From contig JAFZQP010000131.1 in assembly GCA_017620345.1 (NCBI GenBank), positions 1 through 8,048 of the forward strand: a DNA stretch of 8,048 bases. The letters run 5' to 3'. A model generated the notes under the pieces. It ran no database searches, was not told the origin of the DNA, and saw nothing but the letters and a program-made list of their open reading frames with translations. The translations under genes were made by a program, and so were the position numbers. This document shows positions 2,284-8,048 of this stretch, one piece after another; the stretch's first letter is position 1; each line of letters starts with the position of its first letter. Source of the DNA: Lachnospiraceae bacterium. GTDB lineage: Bacteria; Bacillota_A; Clostridia; Lachnospirales; Lachnospiraceae.

Positions 2284-4464
2284 TCACTTCAAACGCATAC
2301 AGACATCACGATACGCTTCAATGAATGATTCCGAGTCGGATCTGATAAAATCGATATCACGGCCGGTTGCAGCATTTTCATGCTTTTTGGCTCTTTCACT
2401 CAAGTCATTCAAACCCAATGATGCCATGAGTCCTTTGATAGAATGCGTCACCAGTTCGTATCCTTCCCAGTCTTCCGACAGGATACAGTTTCGCATTCGT
2501 TCGATCTTTTCTTCGCTTTCCGACGCTATGATACCGACCGTGTCCTTCAAAAGGTCTTCATGACCACCCGCGTATTTTAAAGCCGTTTCGTAATCAAGAC
2601 CGTCTATTTTCTTCAGTTTATCACGCAAAGAATCCAAATCCGGCTCCTGTTCGAAGGAAGCGCTATTAGCCGTAAATACAATAACATCCGAAGGATCATC
2701 GCCTTTTCCGACCGGAAGAATCTTATCGGCAGGCAGGTATTTCTTCACTGTCTGCTCCAAAAGTGATGCATCGAGAGGTTTCGTTAAATAACCGGCAAAC
2801 CCGGCATCCGAATAGATCTTGTCGCTTCCCGCGAGTGCGTTCGCGGTAAGTACGACCGCAGGCGTCTCTTTGTTTTTCGAATCCGGATCACTTCTTATGA
2901 CCTCAAGCGTTTTTATACCGTCCGGATCCGGCATCCTGTGATCCAAAAGAAGAAGGTCATATTTCTTATTTTTGCAAAGATCGATCGCACCCGTACCGCT
3001 TTTACAAAGCTCGGGCGCAATTCCAACACGCTTTAAGAACAGGCTTACTATCCGAAGATTTGCACTGTTGTCGTCTACGGCAAGTACCGAAGCCTCCGGG
3101 GCGGTGTAGTCATTTTCAACGCTTTCGGCAACCACTGCCTCGACCTGTTTCTCATAATCTTCTTCAAGGGGAGTCCTGTCAAAAACCCCGACAGGGATCT
3201 GTACGGTAAACTCCGAACCCTCTCCGCGTTTACTGCTGACCGCTATCTGTCCGCACATGGAATCCAGTATTCTTTTAACAATGGCAAGACCCAGTCCGGT
3301 TCCCTCAATACTCCTGTTCTCTTTCAGATCGGCACGGGAGAACGCTTCAAACAGATGATTCTGAGCCTCTTCGCTGATACCGCGTCCGGTATCCTTAACG
3401 CTCATGATAAGATTGAATTTATCATCTCCTATATACTCTCCGCCGAGTATCAGTTCGACCCACCCCGAATCTGTATACTTGATCGCATTGTTCAACAGAT
3501 TGATCAGGACCTGCCTGATGCGGAATTCGTCGGAAACGATACCGTTCGGGACTTCGTCCTCCAGCCTGATATCGAGCATCAGGCTCTTTTCTCCGGCGCG
3601 CTCCTGCAGCATCGGCATAATATTGTGAAGGAGATACGCCATTATAAACTCGGAGTCATGGATCTCCATCTTTCCTGCTTCTATCTTGGAAAAATCAAGC
3701 ACATCATTTACGAGCATCAGAAGCATCTGCCCGGAATTCTTCACACTCTCCGCATACTCTTCTATCACGGGATCCCTGTTCTCCCGAAGTATCATCTCGT
3801 TCATTCCGAGTATGGCATTGATAGGTGTTCGTATCTCATGTGACATACTTGCAAGAAAGCCGGTCTTTGCTTCCGACAGCTCCCGGGCCTCCTCTGCATG
3901 CTTGATCTCGAAGAGCACGCTCTTATGATAACTGTACATACTGATCAGAACTATCGCCCCGTTAAAAAAGAACAGCAAAGGGTAGCGGCTCATTGCGATC
4001 TCCGAATAGTGCGACTCCACAAGCTTTCTCGCGGGCGTATAAAACAGGATGATAAGGAATATCTGGAAATATGCCGTGATGATAAACCCCACCTTTACGG
4101 AAAACAGGTAACAGTAGCTGATAGGGATCAACATTGTCCACAGATATGCGAATCCGTTATCCGAAAAGAGCATCATTGCCGTCAGTGAAATGGTTGCGAT
4201 CGGAATGATGATCGCCCTGAGGGCAAGACGGCTTTTGTATTTAATGGCAAAGATAAGGTCCAGGATACCCCCTATAATAAAGATCGCGGGGTAGACTGCA
4301 ATATTATACGCTCCATGTACAACATTAATGGCTGAAATGACGATTCCCAGCACTATAAGGAAGACGCCCGTTATAACGGTATTTCTCAGATCGTTGTCCG
4401 CACGCTCTCCAACGCTGATGCTCATGTCAAGTGTACGTTTGATCTCTCGTATCTTTTCGATCAT
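2284..4464 (-). CDS. Hybrid sensor histidine kinase with receiver and HPt domains
   Basis: Predicted 726-residue membrane protein starting at the ATG at 4464. About six hydrophobic helices (28-47, 55-74, 80-100, 105-122, 124-143, 161-178) with short loops form the sensor; no PAS, HAMP or large extracellular domain is visible. A charged helix follows. HisKA carries phospho-His H209 in SHEIRTP. The ATPase domain has N-box Asn N326, DTGRGI (358-363) and GTGLGL (388-393). The receiver (about 457-577) has D464/D465, acceptor D508 in LDHRMPDPDG, T540 and K562. The C-terminal HPt has H674 in THSIKGLMASLG. All phosphotransfer residues are intact, so it can run a His-Asp-His relay like ArcB/BarA-type kinases. 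The final phosphate acceptor, probably a DNA-binding regulator, is not in this window. It is a paralogue of the kinase part of the gene before it: both have NEMILRE after the His box, with 17 identical bases there. The downstream transporter genes start 22 bases after its TGA stop, so they are probably co-transcribed. The ligand is unknown. Confidence 0.93.
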   Translation of the reverse strand: MIEKIREIKRTLDMSISVGERADNDLRNTVITGVFLIVLGIVISAINVVHGAYNIAVYPAIFIIGGILDLIFAIKYKSRLALRAIIIPIATISLTAMMLFSDNGFAYLWTMLIPISYCYLFSVKVGFIITAYFQIFLIILFYTPARKLVESHYSEIAMSRYPLLFFFNGAIVLISMYSYHKSVLFEIKHAEEARELSEAKTGFLASMSHEIRTPINAILGMNEMILRENRDPVIEEYAESVKNSGQMLLMLVNDVLDFSKIEAGKMEIHDSEFIMAYLLHNIMPMLQERAGEKSLMLDIRLEDEVPNGIVSDEFRIRQVLINLLNNAIKYTDSGWVELILGGEYIGDDKFNLIMSVKDTGRGISEEAQNHLFEAFSRADLKENRSIEGTGLGLAIVKRILDSMCGQIAVSSKRGEGSEFTVQIPVGVFDRTPLEEDYEKQVEAVVAESVENDYTAPEASVLAVDDNSANLRIVSLFLKRVGIAPELCKSGTGAIDLCKNKKYDLLLLDHRMPDPDGIKTLEVIRSDPDSKNKETPAVVLTANALAGSDKIYSDAGFAGYLTKPLDASLLEQTVKKYLPADKILPVGKGDDPSDVIVFTANSASFEQEPDLDSLRDKLKKIDGLDYETALKYAGGHEDLLKDTVGIIASESEEKIERMRNCILSEDWEGYELVTHSIKGLMASLGLNDLSERAKKHENAATGRDIDFIRSDSESFIEAYRDVCMRLK

Positions 4465-4480: not shown

Positions 4481-7210
4481 CTAAATTTCCTGGAACAAAA
4501 GACCAAATGTGCCCGGTCCGCAGTTAACGGCTATGGCAGGTGAAGCCTCCTGGAAATAAACCGTATCAAAACTTACCCTCTTCTCCACCTCAGCTTTGAT
4601 ATAATCAAGTTCTTTGGCGGTCAGTCCTACGTATGTTACAAACAGTATCCTTCTGTCTATCTTATGCGGCTGTTTCAATGCGAGCGAGATATACGTCTCC
4701 CACGCCTTTTCCCTTGATTCGAACAATATCCTTGCAAGAGTGATCTTGCCGTTCTTCATCCTTATGATCGGTCTTGCGGAAAGCGATCCCAGTATGCTTG
4801 CCACTCTTATGGACACCTGCCCCGTTCCCGCCAGGAAATCGGTGCTGTCTACAATGAAGCTTGTGTGAACCTTTTCCCTGAACACGTTCAGTTTCTCTAC
4901 GATCTTATCTACGCTCATCCCGGCGTTTGCCAGGCGGCAGGCCTCGAGGACCACAAGTCCGGTTCCGCTTGACAGATGCATTGTATCTATAACGATAACA
5001 TCATCAAACGCCTGAGCCGCCTCACTTGCTATGAGATGTCCGCTCCTTCTGACCTTTTCGGAAACCGTCAGGTGTATAAGGTTCTTGGCACGTCCGAGTT
5101 CGCCCGCAAAAAATTCTTCATGCTCTTCAACCCCCGGAGATGCCGATGTGAATGAACCTCCGTTACCGAGCACATATGTCAGAAGTCCTCTCTGGTCTAT
5201 CTCCAGCGTATCTTTAAACGTTCCTTCATCAGTATGTATCTTATGATACAGTATGCCGATATCATATGCTTTGATCAGATCAAGAGGAAGATCGGCAACG
5301 CTTTCCGTGGATATCGCAAGATGTTTTCTTGTCTTTGCCGTGCTGAGCCAGAATTCATTCCTGCCCTGCCGTTCGCCATCTTCGTCGGGAACAATGACGA
5401 GTGATTCCGGAAGCTGCATGAACAGCTCCTTTTCAAGCTGCAGACCGTCCAGCGGTTTTTCAAGATATCCGTCAAAACCTTCCTTTTCGTAATAAAGCCG
5501 CTTATCATTTCCGACCTTTGCCGTGCATGCGATCACTTTTGAATCCCCGCACAGTCCCCCGGGCTGTGTGCGCAGCTTATGAAGCGTTTCCACACCGCTC
5601 ATCTCGGGCATCAGGTCATCCAAAAGTATCACGTCATAATGATCATCCAGTGCGGCAGACAGAGCCTCGGCTCCGCTCGTGGCTCTTCTGATCTGGACTT
5701 TGGTATCGCGCAGGAGCTTTTCCAGCACCATGAGATTCGGTACATTATCATCGACTATCAGTACCTTAGCTTCAGGCGCCTCAAAACTCCTGGTATATGT
5801 TCGTTTGTGTTTTTCCTTCTGACCGGCCTTGATATCAAATACGCCGACTTCCTCTTTACCGATCCTCTTCTGTGGTATCTCTATGACAAAAGTCGTACCA
5901 TGTCCCGCTATGCTGTTCACGGCTATATTGCCGCCCATCTGATCAACAAGACCTTTAACTATCGAAAGGCCGAGCCCTGTTCCCTCGATCTTACGATTAT
6001 TCTCCGAATCTACCCTCTTAAACGCATCAAACAGATACGGCATGTTCTCTTTCTTAACACCGATACCGGTATCCGAAACGGAATAAATAACATTCACGAT
6101 GTCATCACTTTCTTCCCTGCATTCCACCTGAAGTGAAACAGAGCCTTCCTTCGTGTACTTTACGGCATTTCCGAGCACATTGATAAGTATCTGGCGTATC
6201 CTTACATCATCGGCTTCAAGTGTCGCGGGAAGAGACGACGATATTTCGACCAAAAACTGAAGTCCGCTCTTTTCTGTCATCTCGCGGAACAGTCCTACCA
6301 CCTCGGATATCATATCCATGCTCTTATATGTCACGGGCGTGATCTGCATCTGTCCCGATTCAAGTTGTGACAGGTCAAGTATATCGTTCACGAGCTGGAG
6401 CAGTATCTTGCCGGCTGCTCTTACACTCTCCGCGTCTTCCGCCACCTCATCGGATATATCCTCACGAAGTATCATCTCGTTAAGTCCCACTATCGTATTG
6501 ACAGGAGTCCTTATTTCATGACTCATATTGGAGAAGAAGTGATTCTGTGCATCAAGGAGATATTCCAGGTCTTCTTTCTGTTTTTCGATCTCCATGCTGT
6601 TTCTGATCTGTCTCCTTCTGATGACGATGTATGACAGTCCGATGAAGAACTGAACAACAAAGAAGATCGCATGATAATAAAATCTCTCATCAGGCAGACC
6701 CGTTCTTGAAGTACAATATGCCATTATCCTGAAAAATCCGATGCATCCGGCAACATCGAGTATCACATATACTCCCGGTGACAGACAGTGGCACAAAGGT
6801 ATGGACATCGCCACGATCATGATAAGGCTCGGTGTGACTTTATCGACAAGTCCCGCGTCAAAATAAGTCACGATAAGTGCCCACAGTATCGCGAGCGTTG
6901 CCGAGATATCGCATGTGATTATATATATCCTGTATCTGTCGCCAGCATTCTTCTTCGTCCAAAAAACGACCGCAAGAACGATCAATGCCAGCGCAGCCAT
7001 CAGGATATACATAATACCGTAGCCAAACTCCATACCCGTATAGAGTTTCTGATCGGAACCCAGATAGATAAAGAGGATACAGTCGACAAATAAAACGGAA
7101 GCCCACAGTATTGTCATGACGTGAAAAGTCGTTTCGCACAACCTCACCGTAAATCCACGGAAATGATCATCCAACCCTATATTAAAAGCGTTCTTAAGGA
7201 ACTTCTTCAT
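4481..7210 (-). CDS. Hybrid sensor histidine kinase-receiver-DegV fusion protein
   Basis: Complete 909-residue protein. About six membrane helices (roughly 31-50, 62-84, 95-116, 126-145, 147-165, 180-197) with only short outside loops form the sensor. A charged signalling helix (198-222) leads to HisKA with phospho-His H231 in SHEIRTP. The ATPase domain has the N-box Asn N348, DTGIG (380-384) and GTGLGL (410-415), so the kinase should be active. The receiver (481-600) has D487/D488, acceptor D531, T563 and K585. From about 630 to the end is a full-length DegV/EDD domain, normally a separate fatty-acid-binding protein (FakB type): ISTESVADLP near its start, FTSASPG (687-693), VIDTMHLSSGTGL (740-752), FIVDSTDFL (785-793) and the closing CGPGTFGL (897-904). 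There is no HPt, unlike both neighbours. I infer that DegV either senses a lipid or related ligand for the kinase or is a phosphorylation-controlled output. The frame is continuous, so this is not a sequencing fusion of two genes. An internal start before DegV is listed separately. Confidence 0.93.
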   Translation of the reverse strand: MKKFLKNAFNIGLDDHFRGFTVRLCETTFHVMTILWASVLFVDCILFIYLGSDQKLYTGMEFGYGIMYILMAALALIVLAVVFWTKKNAGDRYRIYIITCDISATLAILWALIVTYFDAGLVDKVTPSLIMIVAMSIPLCHCLSPGVYVILDVAGCIGFFRIMAYCTSRTGLPDERFYYHAIFFVVQFFIGLSYIVIRRRQIRNSMEIEKQKEDLEYLLDAQNHFFSNMSHEIRTPVNTIVGLNEMILREDISDEVAEDAESVRAAGKILLQLVNDILDLSQLESGQMQITPVTYKSMDMISEVVGLFREMTEKSGLQFLVEISSSLPATLEADDVRIRQILINVLGNAVKYTKEGSVSLQVECREESDDIVNVIYSVSDTGIGVKKENMPYLFDAFKRVDSENNRKIEGTGLGLSIVKGLVDQMGGNIAVNSIAGHGTTFVIEIPQKRIGKEEVGVFDIKAGQKEKHKRTYTRSFEAPEAKVLIVDDNVPNLMVLEKLLRDTKVQIRRATSGAEALSAALDDHYDVILLDDLMPEMSGVETLHKLRTQPGGLCGDSKVIACTAKVGNDKRLYYEKEGFDGYLEKPLDGLQLEKELFMQLPESLVIVPDEDGERQGRNEFWLSTAKTRKHLAISTESVADLPLDLIKAYDIGILYHKIHTDEGTFKDTLEIDQRGLLTYVLGNGGSFTSASPGVEEHEEFFAGELGRAKNLIHLTVSEKVRRSGHLIASEAAQAFDDVIVIDTMHLSSGTGLVVLEACRLANAGMSVDKIVEKLNVFREKVHTSFIVDSTDFLAGTGQVSIRVASILGSLSARPIIRMKNGKITLARILFESREKAWETYISLALKQPHKIDRRILFVTYVGLTAKELDYIKAEVEKRVSFDTVYFQEASPAIAVNCGPGTFGLLFQEI
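5417..5431 (-). promoter_or_regulatory. Candidate internal in-frame ribosome-binding site and ATG before the DegV domain
   Basis: AAGGAG (5431-5426, within AAAAGGAG) lies six bases before an in-frame ATG (5419-5417) encoding Met598 of the kinase-DegV fusion, at the end of the receiver domain. Initiation here would give a free 312-residue DegV protein, made of the complete domain plus about 32 leading residues. The site is as good as or better than those of the genuine genes in the window. It could still be a coincidence of the Lys-Glu-Leu-Phe-Met codons, so it is a candidate only. Confidence 0.4.
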
Positions 7211-7216
7211 AACTTC

Positions 7217-7223
7217 TCACCTC
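7217..7223 (-). promoter_or_regulatory. Ribosome-binding site for the kinase-DegV gene
   Basis: GAGGTGA, a seven-base match to the 16S anti-Shine-Dalgarno, lies six bases before the ATG at 7210-7208. It shares two bases with the upstream TGA stop (7224-7222). This fixes the start and suggests that translation of the kinase-DegV gene is coupled to the gene before it. Confidence 0.8.
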
Positions 7224-8048
7224 ATATTTTGGCCGAGAAACGGAATATCTCGCCATCCCCGTCGCTGTCATAGGGCTGCTCCTCCGGCTCTTTCGTCATT
7301 ATGGCTTTCGATATCGCATCCGAAAGATTCAGATAATCATCGATAAACCCGGTGTATGTCGCATCATCAGGAAGAGATCCTCCTTCGGCTGCATTCTCAA
7401 GTGCTCTTGCTTCCTCCGAGACAGACATTCCACCGATCATCTTCGACGAACTCTTTATACCGTGCACGATTATCTCGAAATTCTTAATATCTCCCGCCGC
7501 TATCGCCCTGTCCATAGCGGCCTTCTTATCCGGAGTCTCTGATACATACTGTGAAAGGAGCGTTCTGTAGAACTCCATATCTCCTCTTGCATATTTAAGC
7601 CCCGCGTCAACATCGATACCCTTTATCGTCAGTTCGCCGGCCTTGCCGGTATCCGCAGTATCTTTTACGCTGTTGTCCGGTGTACTCATTGCGGTAAAGA
7701 CAAGTACTTCTTCCTCATTATCCACGTACTCGATCTTCTTATCCGGGATCACGTTCTTCATGACTCTCTCGAGTTCCGCAAGGTTTATTGGCTTACTTAC
7801 AAATCCGTCAAAACCTTCGGCTGCGAACATTTCCCTTGCGGTGCTCATGGTATTTGCCGTAAGCGCCACGATGGGCAGGTGCGTACCCTTAGGATCGCGC
7901 GAAGCCCTGATCTTCTTCATCGCCTCAACACCGTCCATACCGGGCATCATATGATCCATGAACACGATATCGTATTCGTTGTCACGGCACATCTGGATCG
8001 ATTCAAAGCCGGATGCGGCCGTGGTGACATTTATACCGTAGTATGAAA
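7222..8048 (-). CDS. Hybrid sensor histidine kinase, C-terminal receiver-HPt part (5' end outside window)
   Basis: Open reading frame entering from the right edge without a start; 274 residues are visible before the TGA stop. Residues 1 to about 100 are most of a receiver domain: the phospho-acceptor Asp is D31 in FMDHMMPGMDG, followed by the conserved Thr (T63, VALTAN) and Lys (K85, SKP). The acidic N-terminal pocket of the receiver lies off the window. After an acidic linker comes an HPt domain (about 140-235) with the phospho-His H195 in VHGIKSSS. An acidic tail ends in IFRFSAKI. The missing upstream part presumably carries a membrane sensor and kinase core, as in the two downstream paralogues, but that is inference; it could be a simpler receiver-HPt protein. 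The HPt would pass phosphate from its own or a neighbouring receiver to another response regulator. The gene ends 11 bases before the next start, and its stop codon lies against the next gene's ribosome-binding site, indicating an operon. A Met at 7990-7992 lies inside the receiver fold and is not the start. Confidence 0.9.
   Translation of the reverse strand, partial: SYYGINVTTAASGFESIQMCRDNEYDIVFMDHMMPGMDGVEAMKKIRASRDPKGTHLPIVALTANTMSTAREMFAAEGFDGFVSKPINLAELERVMKNVIPDKKIEYVDNEEEVLVFTAMSTPDNSVKDTADTGKAGELTIKGIDVDAGLKYARGDMEFYRTLLSQYVSETPDKKAAMDRAIAAGDIKNFEIIVHGIKSSSKMIGGMSVSEEARALENAAEGGSLPDDATYTGFIDDYLNLSDAISKAIMTKEPEEQPYDSDGDGEIFRFSAKI

Follow-up and report, generated by a model that had tools for sequence, protein, structure and literature searches.

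Why a domain with the fold of fatty-acid-binding proteins should be joined to the receiver end of a histidine kinase is the question raised by a stretch of 8,048 nucleotides from a Lachnospiraceae bacterium (GenBank assembly GCA_017620345.1, contig JAFZQP010000131.1), referred to below in its whole length as the window. The gene concerned is a single uninterrupted ATG frame of 909 codons, located at 4481-7210 (stop codon included) on the minus strand, as are all window features described here, and it encodes a hybrid histidine kinase in which histidine kinase (HK), receiver (REC) and DegV parts follow one another. The original prediction, made from the sequence alone, had proposed that this protein links two-component signalling with lipid handling. 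From the comparison of the protein with its relatives we consider it, on balance, probable that the DegV domain acts as a ligand-sensing regulator within a phosphorelay of two kinases whose pair holds one histidine phosphotransfer domain (HPt).

The order of membrane sensor, HisKA/HATPase, receiver and DegV, claimed originally for an unbroken frame of 909 residues, was recovered by the open reading frame and Pfam analyses alike. The N-terminal membrane region (residues 1-200, 6611-7210) is mostly helical by prediction. It is followed by the HisKA dimerisation and phospho-acceptor domain with His231 (residues 222-286, 6353-6547), a HATPase_c domain in whose alignment the N box and G box residues are present (residues 334-448, 5867-6211) and a receiver, Response_reg, with Asp531 and Lys585 (residues 483-594, 5429-5764); all residues by which a hybrid kinase was recognised are therefore in place. 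A search of the C-terminal part with Pfam DegV (PF02645) gave E 3.5e-37 and 128.7 bits (cut-off 27) and covered profile positions 2-277 of 280, and NCBIfam TIGR00762 scored 138.6 bits against a cut-off of 99.7. As the Pfam match spans residues 631-906, the DegV domain lies at 4493-5320, inside the interval 4484-5323 proposed before for a full DegV domain behind the receiver. Structure comparison agreed: this part adopts the DegV/EDD fold with TM scores of 0.85/0.89 to FakB2, and its nearest folds are FakB2 and further fatty-acid binders. The full-length model (predicted TM score 0.44) is too uncertain for placing DegV relative to the receiver. No C-terminal HPt was found by Pfam in the 909-residue chain, where DegV stands in its place. 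Both remaining kinases of the window end in HPt (33.8 bits in one and 24.4 bits, just below the cut-off of 24.6, in the other), hence the claim that this kinase alone lacks the domain was correct.

The same picture would arise from a chimeric assembly or a frameshift that had fused separate kinase and DegV genes, and this explanation was rejected. Ten relatives of 908-911 amino acids carry the same four Pfam domains and are 81-87% identical over DegV; three relatives align end to end, and the ratio of nonsynonymous to synonymous substitution rates (dN/dS) of the DegV part against them is 0.06-0.10. The probability left to an artefact is negligible.

The fusion belongs to a large family. A protein search seeded with words from the DegV part (length 0.55-1.75 times the query, E <= 0.001) matched 680 proteins; all of the best 120 of these 680 have DegV and receiver domains in precomputed Pfam annotation, and 116 of the 120 have HATPase and HisKA in addition. 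Some organism names among the same 120 are Ruminococcaceae, Clostridiales and Eubacterium, as the sources wrote them. A genome search gave nine loci, the ninth of which (L009) matched in the kinase part only and was left out; the other eight hold the whole gene and are all labelled Lachnospiraceae. Three of the eight come from rumen or jejunum metagenome-assembled genomes, and the host of the window kinase is probably a gut or rumen bacterium. The view that DegV proteins are normally free-standing proved too strong: the 55 DegV matches in eight related genomes comprise 30 full-length free copies, 2 fragments and 23 fused ones (between one and five of them in each genome). The survey of receiver-DegV fusions called for originally was carried out on 150 genomes from the family to which G001 belongs; this centre genome, which holds locus L001, was included, and up to 16 candidates were scored per genome. 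Matches at E <= 1e-35 occurred in 66 genomes and fused frames of more than 780 amino acids in 28, with 43 copies in total; the match in G053 (open frame 601 amino acids, E 9.7e-38) was excluded from the fused count. Of 348 genomes drawn across the phylum, 3 had fused frames, G001 itself among the three, the absences there being soft since only up to 7 candidates per genome were scored. With 28 of 150 genomes in the family draw against 3 of 348 in the phylum draw, the fused family is concentrated in Lachnospiraceae. The two non-centre genomes of the phylum draw, G379 (L123, 1483-3537) and G403 (L122), both hold fused DegV kinases.

The fused kinase is seldom alone. The set examined comprised 62 fused copies, namely the window, 23 from the eight genomes and 38 from the family census, and upstream sequence was available for 61. 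Directly upstream in 56 of these 61 lies a hybrid kinase gene on the same strand, and five of these 56 partners are truncated N-terminally. Where the upstream gene bears a receiver, its distance to the DegV kinase is -80 to +33 nucleotides. In the window the partner is visible as its C-terminal part (REC and HPt, 7222-8046), cut by the window end and placed 11 nucleotides before the DegV kinase, and its HPt (7345-7560) is the only one seen in the pair; to that extent the window shows the same adjacent, co-directional pair with one HPt. The HPt is on the partner, with DegV terminal, in 44 of the 56 pairs, and behind DegV, with a partner lacking HPt, in 11; in the remaining pair the partner has no HPt and the DegV protein is cut by a contig end. 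Thus exactly one HPt is found in all 55 pairs readable at both C-termini. In the alignments the phospho-acceptor His is present in 59 of 59 readable DegV kinases (a gap falls there in 2 of 61) and 55 of 55 upstream kinases, the receiver Asp in 60 of 60 and 57 of 57, and the HPt His in 12 of 12 on the DegV-kinase side and 45 of 46 on the upstream side, where the upstream sets include two operonic loci (L120, L121) described below. The catalytic residues of kinase and receiver are, by these alignments, present on both sides in nearly all pairs.

A phylogeny of the kinase cores places 59 DegV kinases and 53 partners each on one side of a branch (Shimodaira-Hasegawa-like approximate likelihood ratio test 99 and 100, respectively; quick method, no bootstrap). 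Pairwise distances of the partner HK correlate with those of DegV (r 0.75; maximum of 1000 shuffles 0.107) and with those of the DegV-kinase HK (r 0.60; n 53). Judged by tree and distances, the pair is an old unit that has been co-inherited. A stretch of conserved length (141-151 amino acids) separates ATPase and receiver in 51 partners, including that at 6339-8933 of L001; it was tried as a degenerate receiver, and the hhalign probability was 3%.

Possible outputs were counted among genes of the same run for the 51 pairs with a complete partner, with examples checked by Pfam. GGDEF or HD-GYP genes, whose products are associated with cyclic diguanylate (c-di-GMP), occur in 26 runs and a CheA/CheW/MCP-type set in 7. 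HD-GYP genes were found upstream 18 times and downstream once, and GGDEF genes 11 and 2 times, respectively, the upstream and downstream runs being of unequal length. In L001 and L003 the genes ahead of the pair encode a receiver and a receiver-HD-GYP protein, and two such proteins are likely the output of the window system. The pair lies beside flagellar genes in L026 and L027; FlgN, FlgK and FliW were confirmed for L026 alone.

The ligand site of DegV was examined by mapping FakB positions through an alignment to FakB2 (4x9x). T61, S93, R170, R202 and H266 are what we take to be the key residues of FakB2, and the letters at those numbers fit. In the window protein R170 corresponds to Gln798 (codon 4817-4819), R202 to Phe830, H266 to Asn896 (codon 4523-4525) and T61, conservatively, to Ser689, while S93 aligns to Arg721 in a locally uncertain alignment. 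According to PMC8892158, Arg173 and Arg205 of FakB1 are completely conserved, one being required for the catalytic mechanism of the kinase and the other key for FakA binding; they were equated with R170 and R202 of FakB2 by our own matching. Among the 69 nearest aligned rows, the window included, the R170 site is Gln in 68 and the R202 site Phe in 62, Arg is absent from both, and the H266 site is Asn in all 69; N896, G898, G900 and TFG 901-903 are invariant. In the wider fused set the H266 site is Asn in 56 of 60 scorable copies and His in 2, and Arg is kept at the R202 site in 2 of 62 (R202 counts were read directly from the sequence strings). Loss of R170 from all fused DegVs, true for the 69 nearest rows, had to be given up for the wider set, where Arg is retained in 22 of 62. 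The free DegVs (21 sequences, of which 20 come from the eight related genomes and represent 20 of their 30 free copies) have His at H266 in 20, Arg at R202 in 19, with Lys in the other two, and Arg at R170 in all 21.

These differences follow the phylogeny. In a tree of 86 DegV domains, made by a careful method without fragment L028 and the cut second copy of L120, a single branch (support 99/98) sets the 62 fused DegVs apart, and the 62 together with two operonic DegVs are separated from 22 free ones with support 100/99. The two operonic copies, from L120 and L121, are encoded by stand-alone genes directly downstream of a HK-REC-HPt gene, and they adjoin the fused clade when free DegVs are taken as the outgroup. 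A search with the L121 DegV gave 272 proteins at E <= 0.001, the best 120 of which are 282-321 amino acids long and have Asn at H266 in 119, T61 in 119, S93 in 117 and R170 in 94; their neighbourhoods were read for L120 and L121 only. Tree and alignment together show the fused DegVs as a distinct clade with a reshaped head-group site, from which the FakA-docking Arg has gone save in 2 of 62, and Asn at H266 is a hallmark of the signalling DegVs. The likely order of events is that a signalling DegV stood beside a kinase and was fused to it later.

We propose that the DegV domain would no longer pass fatty acid to FakA and may instead bind an acyl chain or another lipid-like ligand in the cytoplasm. 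Whether DegV is loaded or empty could then gate the flow of phosphate between the HPt and the receivers of both kinases. From the HPt the phosphate would go on to response regulators, in many cases enzymes of the c-di-GMP system (HD-GYP/GGDEF) or parts of a chemosensory system. The retained fold, the T61 and S93 kept in L121-type proteins, the strong constraint and the 12 longer copies in which DegV is flanked by receiver and HPt were counted in favour of a ligand sensor. A broader version, tentatively held and somewhat less probable than not, states that a FakB-fold carrier, at first stand-alone beside a HK-REC-HPt kinase and then fused, became an intracellular lipid sensor gating a two-kinase phosphorelay with one HPt per pair, directly tied the state of fatty acids or membrane to c-di-GMP and chemosensory outputs, and founded a new class of bacterial signalling modules concentrated in Lachnospiraceae.

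The original prediction had drawn on FakB proteins, which present fatty acids to FakA. A FakB-type carrier that works with FakA and whose loading is under phosphorelay control would agree with a genuine DegV fold, nearest to FakB2 and further proteins that bind fatty acids, and with FakA matches somewhere in all eight related genomes (over the cut-off in seven). The sites of the docking Arg, the catalytic Arg and the network His are, however, changed to Phe, Gln and Asn. A search with one FakA query through the 554 frames of 65 loci, 62 of them with fused genes and many cut by contig ends, found no FakA, and four of the eight related genomes, which hold separate canonical DegVs beside the fused ones, have a free DegV within about 3 kb of a FakA match. 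Since the FakB residues are changed, that one query found no FakA in the 65 loci and free DegVs lie near FakA in four genomes, service of the fused DegV to FakA is very unlikely, and a FakA-dependent role was rejected on the changed residues and this neighbourhood result. The proposed link of two-component signalling to lipids thus stands in its structural tie to a lipid-carrier fold and falls in its FakA part.

More weight, though still clearly a minority share, falls to an output role, by which phosphorylation of the receiver would switch a DegV whose task is to sequester or deliver lipid or to dock to a further protein. To 58 distant members the window protein is on average 14% identical over the membrane part, 60% over HK, 53% over REC and 52% over DegV; adjacent DegV and receiver, equally conserved beside a variable membrane part, make the usual pattern of a fixed output, and the stand-alone DegV right after HK-REC-HPt in L120 and L121 could be an effector. 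The position of DegV before the HPt in the 12 longer copies would be odd for a terminal output, and 33 of the 51 gene runs already encode output-like c-di-GMP or chemosensory proteins. It is rather improbable that DegV is an inert scaffold, kept without ligand merely as a spacer or dimerisation module: several ligand-site residues have been lost in many fused copies and ligand binding is inferred, but dN/dS is low, the residues at 896-903 listed above are invariant, and the L121-type stand-alone DegVs have retained T61 and S93.

Several observations weigh against the ligand sensor that we favour. That the DegV pocket is filled, by which ligand and in which direction control runs are points that we infer, and a DegV that stays constant while the membrane part varies suits an output role too. 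Head-site residues vary among the fused copies; the window protein has Gln for R170 and has apparently lost S93, and its binding of a head group may therefore be weaker or of another kind. The placement of HPt on the DegV tree requires one or two switches only. The 55 pairs are therefore not 55 independent tests, and with relatedness taken into account, which leaves one or two independent pairs, the HPt anticorrelation cannot become significant. A further HPt protein is encoded in the same gene run at 12 of the 56 pair loci, the window included, thus the HPt of the pair need not be the sole route. With few switches and extra HPt proteins the pattern is consistent with a shared HPt and is not proof of it. 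Five loci depart from the pairing: L024 has an unrelated upstream gene, L091 a partner split over two frames and L093 a receiver upstream followed by the contig end, and L118 and L119 are solitary, with no partner and no receiver detected. As for outputs, the 26 runs with GGDEF or HD-GYP genes are a raw count, taken around DegV-bearing pairs only; receivers only, some inside further hybrid kinases, were found in 12 of the 51 runs, and 6 have no receiver in the run. The solitary kinase-DegV proteins lie at 7951-10560 of L118 and 7790-10375 of L119; no HisKA was detected in that of L118 by Pfam at E <= 0.001.

Each part of the system has known counterparts. Compared with the fatty-acid binders of the FakB/DegV family (PF02645; FakB2 4x9x, Thermus thermophilus 2dt8), the present DegV is fused behind a receiver, has Gln, Phe and Asn for R170, R202 and H266, has no adjacent FakA and sits on a separate branch of the tree. 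It resembles the HK-REC-HPt kinases of the BarA/TorS/ArcB type in its HisKA, HATPase and REC with catalytic residues, and differs from them in that DegV replaces the HPt, which is carried by the adjacent partner or, in a minority, follows DegV; on the DegV kinase the models for TorS, BarA and ArcB stay far under the scores required. DhaQ (2iu4), a paralogue of DhaK of the same broader fold and co-activator of the dha operon, is a carrier subunit turned regulator; it is a free-standing protein that binds dihydroxyacetone and has a TetR-type regulator as its target, and it is not known to take part in a phosphorelay. The DegV kinase may be likened to it as a carrier turned sensor. In the SaeRS case of Staphylococcus aureus the Fak enzyme and the kinase are separate, and the kinase is not known to have a carrier domain. 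Fak-dependent control of SaeRS reportedly ties intracellular fatty acids to a two-component system (PMC5539427). In searches of open-licence literature no description of DegV-kinase fusions was found; the parts are known, but their combination, the rule of pairing and the DegV clade with its reshaped site appear to be undescribed there. Public records already name some of the proteins "DegV family EDD domain-containing protein", so the sequences themselves are known, though no discussion of them was found.

If the proposal holds, the lipid state inside the cell would have a built-in path into the phosphorelay and c-di-GMP signalling of Lachnospiraceae, and the many proteins that are annotated merely as DegV family would gain a function that can be tested. 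The HPt accounting predicts exchange of phosphate between the two neighbouring kinases. The His-to-Asn mark would set signalling DegVs apart from true FakBs, and genomes rich in DegVs should therefore not all be read as those of fatty-acid users.

Downstream of the DegV kinase the window encodes a third hybrid kinase, HK-REC-HPt, with an HPt of its own (2284-4464), which recurs in L001 and L002 and is cut by the contig end in L003; its membrane part is MASE6-like at 26 bits, just below the cut-off of 27.4. Downstream of the kinase cluster lie a gene for a MATE-family transporter (894-2261) and one for a sodium:dicarboxylate symporter (3-881), cut by the window end, whose N-terminal approximately 140 amino acids are weakly similar to HATPase_c_2 (20.4 bits, below the cut-off of 27.4). 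In L018, L020 and L025 four hybrid kinases stand in a row, the outermost cut and the last being a DegV-HPt protein, followed by a gene of 507 amino acids that encodes a sodium:alanine symporter in L018 and has a similar start and equal length in L020 and L025.
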